This document shows positions 24,558-44,916 of a DNA stretch of 64,000 nucleotides, piece by piece. How positions within the stretch are numbered: the stretch's first letter is position 1; every line of letters begins with the position of its first letter. Position numbers and translations under genes: made by a program. Source of the stretch: Prochlorococcus marinus XMU1405. GTDB taxonomy: Bacteria > Cyanobacteriota > Cyanobacteriia > PCC-6307 > Cyanobiaceae. The notes under the pieces are model-generated. The model searched no databases, was not told where the DNA came from, and saw only the letters and a list, made by a program, of their open reading frames with translations. The stretch spans positions 470,174-534,173 of the forward strand of contig NZ_JAAORF010000001.1 of NCBI RefSeq assembly GCF_017696275.1. Reading direction: 5' to 3'.

Positions 24558-25142
24558 TTAATTTAAACCAATTTCTTTTTTTAGATAAGGTGACATAATT
24601 TTTGCAGCTTTACCTCTACTACCTAATTTATTTAATTGTGATTGTGAGAGCTCACCGTAAACACAGTTAGCCTCTTTTACCCAAAAAATAGATTCGAATT
24701 CCCCATTTGGATATTTGGGGTTCTTAAGAATTTCTCCCCAGCATATTCCTGTTGTATCTTTAACTAAGTTTCCTAAGGGATCGCACAAAACCATACAACT
24801 TATAAATCTTGCACTCCTATAAGGGCTTTCAGAAAGTTCATTAATTAATTTTTTAATTTTCTCATCATTATTTTTGGCATATCGAGCAGAATAAATTCCT
24901 GGCCGACCATCTAAAACATCTACTTCAAGACCCGAGTCATCAGCTAATGCCCAAGTTTTAGTCTCTAAAGCAGCTGCTTTTGCTTTTAGAAGTGCATTCT
25001 CAAAATATGTGTTTCCAGTCTCTTCAACATTTAAATATTCTGGTTGCTTCTCAACCCTTAAAGACAAAACATCAAGCATTTCCGAAATTTCAGAAACTTT
25101 ATTTTTGTTGCCACTCGCAATAGTTAGAACTGGAAGGTTCAA
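24558..25142 (-). CDS. rdgB: XTP/dITP diphosphatase (RdgB/HAM1 family)
   Basis: This house-cleaning enzyme hydrolyses non-canonical purine triphosphates (dITP, XTP) to the monophosphates. The 194 residues show the substrate-binding start LTIASGNKNKVSEISEML, the catalytic-region TWALADDSGLEVDVLDGRPGIYSARYA, and the C-terminal NKLGSRGKAAKI. The start is TTG at 25142. The long non-coding region upstream (25143-25469) could supply a structured leader of about 105 bases, described separately. It sits between csoS1D and csoS1 in opposite orientation. Confidence 0.94.
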   Translation of the reverse strand: MNLPVLTIASGNKNKVSEISEMLDVLSLRVEKQPEYLNVEETGNTYFENALLKAKAAALETKTWALADDSGLEVDVLDGRPGIYSARYAKNNDEKIKKLINELSESPYRSARFISCMVLCDPLGNLVKDTTGICWGEILKNPKYPNGEFESIFWVKEANCVYGELSQSQLNKLGSRGKAAKIMSPYLKKEIGLN

Positions 25143-25189
25143 AATAACTAATAAATTTATTGTGAGTAATATCTTACTTTAAAGCTTGA

Positions 25190-25247
25190 TACGGAGACAG
25201 GAAAGGTTGAACATTCCACACCTGTGTAGACAGGGCCTGCCTCGTAC
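25190..25247 (-). ncRNA. candidate structured RNA: antisense to the csoS1 leader, or rdgB 5' leader element
   Basis: A patch of about 53% GC (hand count over 25190-25246) sits in very AT-rich DNA. On the minus strand, TACGAGGCAGG (25246-25236) pairs with CCTGTCTCCGTA (25201-25190), with one bulge and one G-U pair. On the plus strand the same place is an A-C mismatch, so the minus strand folds better. Inside is the hairpin CCTGT-CTAC-ACAGG (25234-25221). The remaining loop carries TGTGGAATGTTCAA (25220-25207), exactly complementary to 25438-25451 in the csoS1 leader. A weak promoter (TTGTGT, 17 bases, TATGTT at 25259-25254) would start RNA near 25247. No terminator was found. It could equally be the rdgB leader. 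Confidence 0.35.
25207..25220 (+). repeat. 14-base direct repeat, copy 1 (TTGAACATTCCACA)
   Basis: An identical 14-mer occurs at 25438-25451, 231 bases downstream. This copy lies in the unpaired part of the candidate RNA. Chance recurrence of a 14-mer within a few hundred bases is unlikely even in AT-rich DNA. Confidence 0.9.
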
Positions 25248-25345
25248 GGAAATAACATAATGTAAATTTTTTCTTAACACAACAGTATGTTTTGATGCAC
25301 TAACTAATTTGCATAAGTATTGACATATCAATAGTACCAAGGGTG

Positions 25346-25360
25346 ATAAGTTTAACTTAT
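25346..25360 (+). promoter_or_regulatory. palindromic operator candidate (LysR-type T-N11-A)
   Basis: ATAAGTTTAACTTAT is a perfect inverted repeat with seven-base arms and one central base. It contains T-N11-A, the core layout of LysR-type regulator sites. A second palindrome with a similar half-site (ACTTATAAGT) is at 25406-25415. It lies about 110 bases before csoS1, where an RbcR/CbbR-type activator would be expected to bind. The identity of the regulator is inference. Confidence 0.4.
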
Positions 25361-25405
25361 GAATGATAGAAAAAACATTAATGGAGATTTTGTCGAAAAC
25401 GCTTG

Positions 25406-25415
25406 ACTTATAAGT
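25406..25415 (+). promoter_or_regulatory. second palindrome ACTTATAAGT near csoS1 promoter region
   Basis: Ten-base perfect palindrome that includes TATAAG, usable as a -10 element, about 55 bases before the csoS1 start. It may be promoter, operator or both. It shares the ACTTAT half-site with 25346-25360. Confidence 0.3.
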
Positions 25416-25437
25416 ACTTAATGAAGCATTCTTCGAA

Positions 25438-25451
25438 TTGAACATTCCACA
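25438..25451 (+). repeat. 14-base direct repeat, copy 2, in the csoS1 leader
   Basis: Second copy of TTGAACATTCCACA. It ends 18 bases before the csoS1 ATG, in the region covered by an initiating ribosome. The reverse complement of the first copy is the loop of the candidate minus-strand RNA, so the two could pair over 14 bases. Confidence 0.9.
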
Positions 25452-25469
25452 TTTAGTATTTAGTAGACA

Positions 25470-25781
25470 ATGGCTACAGAAACAATGGGTATCGCTCTCG
25501 GCATGATCGAGACACGCGGACTTGTACCTGCAATCGAAGCAGCAGACGCAATGACAAAGGCAGCAGAAGTTCGCCTTATTGGTCGTGAATTCGTTGGTGG
25601 CGGTTATGTCACAGTATTAGTTAGAGGCGAAACAGGAGCAGTTAACGCAGCTGTAAGAGCTGGTGCTGACGCTTGTGAAAGAGTTGGTGACGGTTTAGTT
25701 GCAGCTCACATTATTGCTCGTCCTCATAGAGAAGTTGAACCTGCTCTAGGTAACGGTGAATTTCTTGGTCAAAAGGACTAA
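25470..25781 (+). CDS. csoS1: major carboxysome shell hexamer CsoS1
   Basis: This BMC-domain protein of 103 residues tiles the facets of the alpha-carboxysome shell. It starts MATETMGIALGMIETRGLVPAIEAADAM, with the BMC core VRLIGREFVGGGYVTVLVRGETGAVNAAVRAG and the C-terminal HIIARPHREVEPAL. It is the first gene of the carboxysome operon and the only single-domain csoS1 in the window, whereas other alpha-cyanobacteria and proteobacteria have several. No clear Shine-Dalgarno sequence is seen, so leader structure or pairing may matter for expression. Confidence 0.97.
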   Translation: MATETMGIALGMIETRGLVPAIEAADAMTKAAEVRLIGREFVGGGYVTVLVRGETGAVNAAVRAGADACERVGDGLVAAHIIARPHREVEPALGNGEFLGQKD

Positions 25782-44830: not shown

Positions 44831-44916
44831 GGGAGTGTGGCGGAATTGGTAGACGCGCCGGACTTAAAATCCGTCGAGCGATTTAGCTCGTGGGGGTTCA
44901 AGTCCCCCCACTCCCA
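44831..44916 (+). tRNA. trnL-UAA: tRNA-Leu (anticodon UAA)
   Basis: An 86-base class II tRNA. Acceptor arm GGGAGTG/CACTCCC is followed by A (discriminator). The loop CTTAAAA carries anticodon TAA at 44865-44867. A long variable arm (CGAGCGATTTAGCTCG) and T-loop GTTCAAG in a GGGGG/CCCCC-rich stem complete it. CCA is not encoded. There is no group I intron in the anticodon, unlike many other cyanobacteria. Confidence 0.97.

Follow-up and report, generated by a model that had tools for sequence, protein, structure and literature searches.

The window analysed here, a 64,000-nucleotide stretch of the Prochlorococcus marinus XMU1405 genome, contains a gap of 327 nt that separates rdgB (24558-25142, minus strand) from csoS1 (25470-25781, plus strand), the latter of which precedes rbcL in the carboxysome/Rubisco cluster. 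Both gene names and the gap length had been given in an initial annotation of the sequence; the length is right and the names were confirmed by family models, csoS1 matching NCBIfam BMC_CsoS1 above the cut-off. Within the gap, and upstream of rdgB on the same strand, lies a GC-rich element of about 50 nt (25194-25243, minus strand), in which an outer stem encloses an inner hairpin and an exposed loop, GGAAUGUUC. The outer stem (stem I) joins GAGGCAGG (25236-25243) to CCUGUCUC (25194-25201) through 8 pairs, the inner hairpin (hairpin II, CCUGU-CUAC-ACAGG) occupies 25221-25234, and the loop, or seed, extends over 25207-25220 with its GGAAUGUUC core at 25217-25209, all on the minus strand. No Rfam 15 family matches the element at the gathering score, the best weak match being JA04 (E 5.1), and five loci of other genera likewise had no Rfam match at E<=1. 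A tRNA gene at 44831-44916 is the sole Rfam match at the gathering score in the whole window.

The loop is the exact complement of 25438-25451 (plus strand), 32 to 19 nt before the csoS1 ATG, and this 14-base complementarity had been correctly described from the outset. At the DNA level it appears as a direct repeat: TTGAACATTCCACA occurs exactly at 25207-25220 and 25438-25451, the two copies being 231 nt apart, with no other exact copy in the window. It is the longest direct repeat of the gap, and a repeat of equal length arose in 1 of 2000 mononucleotide shuffles; a search tolerating as many as 3 mismatches showed no enrichment in the window (10 matches, 11.4 expected). A 14-mer is also present in at least 120 stretches of viral sequence, a frequency that we disregarded since words this short can be expected to turn up there by chance alone. 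A coding role was similarly rejected, as the 88-aa minus-strand ORF at 25179-25445 is open between both copies in only 13 of 40 genus loci. Stem I enclosing the inner hairpin, as originally drawn, was recovered by folding, and the fold energy by itself is unremarkable for a single sequence (z -0.80 on the minus strand, -0.95 on the plus strand). The accompanying claim of a better fold on the minus strand holds for the 50-nt element alone (minus -14.4 vs plus -13.4) and fails over 119 nt, where the plus strand folds more stably (-22.4 vs -20.3); among 60 distinct elements, the minus strand is more stable in 33 and the plus strand in 26, with one tie. Because the single-sequence fold is not remarkable, comparison between genomes had to decide.

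When examining the distribution of the element, we used a covariance model (R1) built from the 60 distinct elements. R1 matches the window at 25194-25243 with an E value of 8.7e-16 (G000:C1:495367-495416, minus strand), and across the family 190 of 300 genomes carry an R1 match, spread over 44 of 59 genera. Of 244 genomes drawn from the phylum, 22 gave a match, 19 of which belong to the same family and 3 to another family (E about 0.002); one of these three weak matches was examined and is an unrelated hairpin. The counts that matter are those based upon one genome per genus, because the first loci had been chosen for matching the element, and by this measure the element is located upstream of csoS1 in 40 of the 53 genera scored. 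A pattern scan found, among the matches listed, Prochlorococcus, Synechococcus, Cyanobium, Vulcanococcus, uncultured relatives, and one Spirochaetaceae record, which we take as a chance match. Contig G151:C17 (L122, L123) has the element together with csoS1 twice, close to either end and in opposite orientation, reflecting either an assembly artefact or a duplication.

It is evident from this family-wide comparison that the fold is conserved. In 66 distinct elements aligned to the model (alignment A3), 93.7% of 907 cells are paired and 13 of 14 pairs have changes on both sides, although A3 was fitted to the tested structure, which favours that structure. Covarying pairs in stem I, which the initial annotation had proposed to look for, are found throughout, with double changes in all 8 pairs, and hairpin II has them in 5 of 6 pairs, with 87.1% of its cells paired. 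The covariation score is 0.366, compared with 0.169 ± 0.010 for shuffled alignments (0 of 500) and no more than 0.111 when partners were slid. In several genera whole stems have been replaced (GAGGCAGG/CCTGTCTC, GCAACACG/CGTGTTGC, GGAACCGGC/GCCGGTTCC). On the plain alignment A1, made without structure fitting, RNAalifold recovered stem I only and did not recover hairpin II. Non-Watson-Crick cells, which count sequences rather than events, are predominantly G-U when read on the minus strand: 63 G-U vs 6 A-C over the 66 elements, 31 vs 2 within stem I, and 25 vs 2 in stem I of a hand-delimited, overlapping set of 60. It is this wobble pattern, not the fold energy, that tells the strand, and we therefore conclude that the predicted RNA is the minus strand, such that the covarying stems and the G-U bias bear out the minus-strand RNA that had been proposed. 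The initial annotation had also envisaged a two-fold switch through a CCTGTCT segment common to hairpin II and stem I. This part is not conserved, as CCTGTCT occurs in hairpin II of 17 of the 60 elements in A1 and 3 of the 66 in A3, all from the window genus.

Promoter-like sequences are similarly conserved on both sides of the gap. These and the contacts described below were compared in 42 genera with one locus each, comprised of the 40 scored genera with the element plus g30 and g45, which were represented by members that carry it; the script-delimited stem I is displaced in a few of the 42 rows (g16, g34, g40). On the minus strand, all 42 loci have TAnnnT at a distance of 3-12 nt upstream of stem I (shuffles 9.0 ± 2.6, highest 19), and TTG stands at a spacing of 16-18 nt from this -10 box in 26 of 42 (shuffles 0.8 ± 0.9, highest 4). 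The window counterpart is TTGTGT (25277-25282), 17 nt, and TATGTT (25254-25259), which predicts a start near 25247. The weak minus-strand promoter that had been suggested here is thus conserved across the 42 genera; a strict sigma-70 scan listed no minus-strand promoter at this site in the window. For csoS1, the predicted -35 box is TTGACT (25403-25408) and the -10 box, identified by comparing the 42 leaders, is CATTCT (25427-25432). TTGAC is present in 42 of 42 leaders, and CAnnnT followed by 7 nt and GAACATTCC in 40 of 42. This fixed layout places the target core (GAACATTCC, 25440-25448 in the window) at the predicted 5' end of a leader of about 30 nt. Between the two promoters sits a palindrome, ATAAG-N5-CTTAT (25346-25360), which is exact in 31 of the 42 genus representatives and a variant of up to 2 bases in the other 11, with its center 87-89 nt 5' of GAACATTCC in all 42. 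An RbcR motif has been reported at about 90 nt from the start site (PMC13249358), and the palindrome resembles it in both sequence and distance. Due to its location between the csoS1 and minus-strand promoters, this RbcR-like site might control both.

The first of two predicted contacts is that between the loop and GAACAUUCC at the predicted 5' end of the csoS1 mRNA. Loop core and target core agree at all nine positions in 41 of 42 genera, and at flank positions 10-15, 228 of 252 cells are pairable in the sense of a minus-strand RNA to a plus-strand mRNA, compared with 213.7 ± 2.3 for permuted partners (0 of 5000) and 217 with the sense reversed. True partners also have a lower duplex energy (-28.4 kcal/mol vs -26.2 ± 0.3 for permuted partners, 0 of 5000). 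These permutation tests, like those below and the joint-loss statistic, take no account of phylogeny. Folding predicts an open csoS1 target in the window (mean unpaired probability 0.88) and a loop that is open in part (0.61, with an opening cost of 2.1 kcal/mol), while the whole element against 25420-25500 yields -42.3 kcal/mol, compared with -22.8 ± 3.9 for shuffled sequences (0 of 1000). There are exceptions as well. The seed core is altered in 2 of 66 elements (L278 and L354; loop GAACAGTCC, target unchanged), and in L353 the element is present with an altered target (GAACAATCC). The core mismatches of all three are uncompensated, and flank mismatches also occur, for example in L352 and L361. 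Overall, comparison across the family supports the predicted pairing with the csoS1 leader.

The spacing between the two partners is variable. In all 11 loci that were re-read because csoS1 fell outside the first short stretch (L145-L155), the element lies 1605-2472 nt from csoS1 with both copies in place, and sbtA and/or sbtB lie in between in each of the three for which ORFs were listed. Since the complementarity is kept over such variable spacing, a fixed-spacing DNA device is unlikely. The intervening genes of these three larger-genome relatives are of the SbtA-type bicarbonate transporter and PII-like SbtB type (L145 3164-4555; L154 1076-2089; L155 4253-4534), with Pfam Sbt_1 matches in L145 and L154 and P-II matches in L145 and L155. 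The window gap is without SbtA-type or SbtB-type genes.

A second complementarity, which was absent from the initial annotation, lies between the inner hairpin and either the start codon or the Shine-Dalgarno sequence of csoS1, and it differs by lineage. In the window, UGUCUAC of hairpin II (25232-25226, minus strand) is complementary to GUAGACA immediately 5' of the AUG (GTAGACA, 25463-25469, plus strand), with a second-site duplex energy of -16.0 kcal/mol. Many marine-like genera (this and Cyanobium-like are labels coined in this analysis) have GCAUUGCC opposite GGCAAUG(G) over the start codon, whereas several Cyanobium-like genera have CCUGGAG opposite CUCCAGG(A) over the Shine-Dalgarno sequence. 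In g50 and g56, the start regions are unlike those of their relatives and the hairpin is altered to match. True partners average -14.05 kcal/mol, compared with -12.47 ± 0.27 for permuted partners (0 of 10000), and z falls below -1 against shuffled leaders in 33 of 42 genera. When corrected for composition, the permuted partners did as well in 0 of 10000 cases overall and 45 of 10000 among the 33 marine-like genera; when only the 8 Cyanobium-like genera are considered, true partners have no clear advantage over permuted ones (605 of 10000). Own-pair z values are -3.2 for the window genus, -3.7 for g56, and -2.4 for g50, while the own pair of g42 (-1.0) has no advantage over its relatives' pairs. 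The second contact would require that hairpin II open. Read on the plus strand, the element looks like the csoS1 leader minus its middle.

Loss of the element and of its target was scored by hand in 53 genera, each represented by one genome in which the csoS1 start could be read (6 of the 59 were not scorable). The element was counted as absent when 2.7 kb of upstream sequence, or whatever shorter stretch the locus offered, contained none. With the element present, the csoS1 core is intact in 40 of 40 genera; with the element absent, the core is decayed in 9 of 13 and intact in 4 of 13 (Fisher p 1.6e-7, kinship ignored). Borderline cases counted as present were g3 (5-bp stem by script; R1 E 4.9e-6), g34 (no match in the first R1 search, E 0.0027 in a later one), and g47 (loop with one change), whereas g51 (one-mismatch copy in a 5-bp stem) was counted as absent. 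The decayed csoS1 motifs (GAACTTCC/GAACTTCG, GAACCTCC, GGACCCTCC, GCAACATTTC, GAACATTCA, GAACCTTCC) differ from one another, which makes several independent losses likely. In both g30 and g45, the representative lacks element and motif together, while three other members of each have both. The core is kept without the element in g9, g18, g29, g49, and genome G237. According to the initial annotation, genomes that retain csoS1 without the element or the complementarity would count against its reading. The decayed motif in 9 of the 13 element-less genera supports a link between element and target; the other 4, which keep the motif, count against it.

Wherever rdgB could be placed, the element is beside it on the csoS1 side (42 of 42 loci). 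The two genes are parted in g35, g37, and g48, where a search of roughly 4.5 kb ahead of csoS1 found no rdgB; the element was seen neither next to csoS1 nor next to the rdgB copies examined. These three genera have GAACCTCC at csoS1, and a compensatory change of the seed core was considered for them and rejected, since a pattern search of the first 400 nt beside 5 of 6 rdgB-like matches (G184, G186, G197) found no element with a changed loop.

Comparison thus shows conservation of the predicted RNA fold and strand, of promoter-like sequences on both sides, and of complementarity at both contacts. Based upon these features, we consider it quite probable that a structured minus-strand RNA pairs with the csoS1 mRNA at two places and lowers csoS1 translation. 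The minus strand of about 25247-25194 would encode this RNA, its exposed loop would pair with the first 12-15 or so nucleotides of the roughly 30-nt csoS1 leader, and the inner hairpin would pair with the start-codon or Shine-Dalgarno region. Both contacts would cover the ribosome landing site, and less of the first protein of the carboxysome/Rubisco operon would be translated. That the RNA is made, that it contacts the csoS1 mRNA in cells, that it represses, and that it acts in trans, either on its own or as part of the rdgB mRNA, at its 5' end, is what we infer from this pattern. Given pairing, we lean toward repression of translation as its consequence, with protection of the mRNA 5' end next. 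As for the form of the RNA, no intrinsic terminator-like site was found in the two loci scanned (window 25000-25500 and L145 2650-3200), and the RNA may therefore derive from the rdgB transcript, by processing or as its leader. The element may be either a free small RNA or the rdgB leader.

The same pairing could have the opposite effect, namely to shield the csoS1 mRNA 5' end from 5'-end-dependent decay and raise its expression. Such protection would suit a target core that, in 40 of 42 loci, starts where the mRNA 5' end is predicted, and an antisense RNA has been described as a positive regulator of rbcL in Synechocystis (PMC6202907). However, the second contact on the start codon or Shine-Dalgarno sequence points to a translation block, and we regard protection as possible, though clearly the less likely outcome. 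Somewhat more doubtful is the scenario in which the element is the 5' end of the rdgB mRNA and rdgB is the regulated gene, with the abundant csoS1 mRNA pairing to the rdgB leader. This agrees with the terminator scans of two loci, neither of which found one ahead of rdgB, and with the short distance from the element to the rdgB start (46-115 nt in 36 of 42 loci). In the other 6, however, this distance is 137-620 nt, the lineage-wise match of hairpin II to the csoS1 start site would serve csoS1 control, and the csoS1 motif has decayed in most of the element-less genera (9/13). It is also conceivable, though very unlikely, that the two GAACATTCC copies are sites of one protein, on DNA or RNA, and not mutual partners. 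Such sites would account for the nearly invariant 9-nt core in both copies, the locking of the downstream copy to the promoter, and its persistence without the element in 4 of 13 genera. Yet covariation in the stems and the asymmetry of the wobble pairs are the signature of a minus-strand RNA, which would put the two GAACATTCC copies, as RNA, on opposite strands; moreover, flank changes obey G-U rules in one sense, and a second complementarity exists. A chance repeat in an AT-rich gap, for which the weak single-sequence fold (z only -0.8) might speak, is refuted by conservation of the element in 44 of 59 genera. Returning to two-site pairing with the csoS1 mRNA, a speculative extension, possible but unlikely, is that of an ancestral device of the whole family, in which the 5' end of the rdgB-side transcript, be it the rdgB leader or a small RNA preceding it, mirrors the csoS1 leader in contracted form and the nascent divergent transcripts would pair locally to set carboxysome output. 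The constant position of the element beside rdgB in 42 loci, and its apparent lack in the three genera with parted genes, would fit such a device.

Much of the carbon fixed in the ocean depends on the alpha-carboxysome operon of Prochlorococcus and Synechococcus, and the predicted element would probably control how much carbon-fixing machinery is made. A conserved RNA that is pairable with the csoS1 leader, with the exact bases to mutate, offers a direct handle on carboxysome/Rubisco tuning in organisms with few protein regulators. Its arrangement is reminiscent of IstR-1/tisB and OhsC/shoB, type I toxin systems in which divergently encoded, non-overlapping antisense small RNAs lie beside their targets. 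Like these, the element is divergent from and adjoins its target gene without overlap (25194-25247 vs a csoS1 leader from about 25440), has a short conserved complementarity to the target leader (a nine-base core in 41 of 42 genera), and, as judged from sequence conservation, has a promoter of its own. Unlike these, its target is a carboxysome shell gene before rbcL rather than a small toxin, its two contacts resemble a shortened copy of the target leader, it is spread across a whole family, and no intrinsic terminator of its own was found in the window or L145. A cis-antisense RNA would overlap its target on the opposite strand, whereas the element and its target site are separate.

RNA control of csoS1 has been suggested previously among the Yfr1/Yfr10/Yfr2 RNAs of Prochlorococcus, as a Yfr10 pull-down enriched csoS1 and csoS2 mRNA in MED4 (PMC6778093). 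In contrast to these RNAs, the element has no Rfam match, and the available text of that study names no RNA at this gap. RblR of Synechocystis resembles the proposed role of the element as an RNA controlling Rubisco expression, but RblR is described as fully complementary to its target gene rbcL, whereas the element does not overlap csoS1 (PMC6202907). Yfr28 beside ftsZ is likewise a small RNA gene adjoining a gene with a pairable leader, except that it overlaps an ftsZ leader and has been reported from high-light Prochlorococcus clades only (PMC7368042). csoS1 is not named in Table 1 of PMC2518516, and the words csoS1, ccmK, and carboxysome are absent from the available text of that paper; a word search of the available text of PMC2897979 had no match; and the main text of PMC7368042 lacks csoS1, carboxysome, rbcL, and rdgB. 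The supplementary tables of PMC7368042 hold 152 MED4 and 104 NATL2A candidate gaps, and the supplements of PMC5069720 hold 58 noncoding start sites of Synechococcus CC9605; the rdgB-csoS1 gap may be among the entries of either. The available text of a 2026 review of the CO2-concentrating mechanism discusses noncoding and antisense RNAs in general terms and names none for the alpha-carboxysome operon (PMC13249358).

In the whole genome, exact GAACATTCCAC has 4 occurrences. The fourth copy is inside an ABC-transporter-like ORF, where the other strand reads WNVQ, and we do not claim it as a target. Another copy precedes a sigma gene of the RpoD type (family confirmed) by about 290 nt, with a divergent long ORF on the other side, which we take for priA. 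We likewise do not claim this rpoD-side copy as a second target, since 3 of 12 more divergent genomes of the genus have GAACATTACAC and 0 of 14 rpoD loci of other genera have the exact core, with one-mismatch copies in L329. It is possibly a second target nevertheless, and it is kept in all 30 genus loci read (of 61 genomes matched). In L001 (1501-1511, minus strand), the copy before the RpoD-type sigma gene has 15 bases, GTTGAACATTCCACA, in common with the element.
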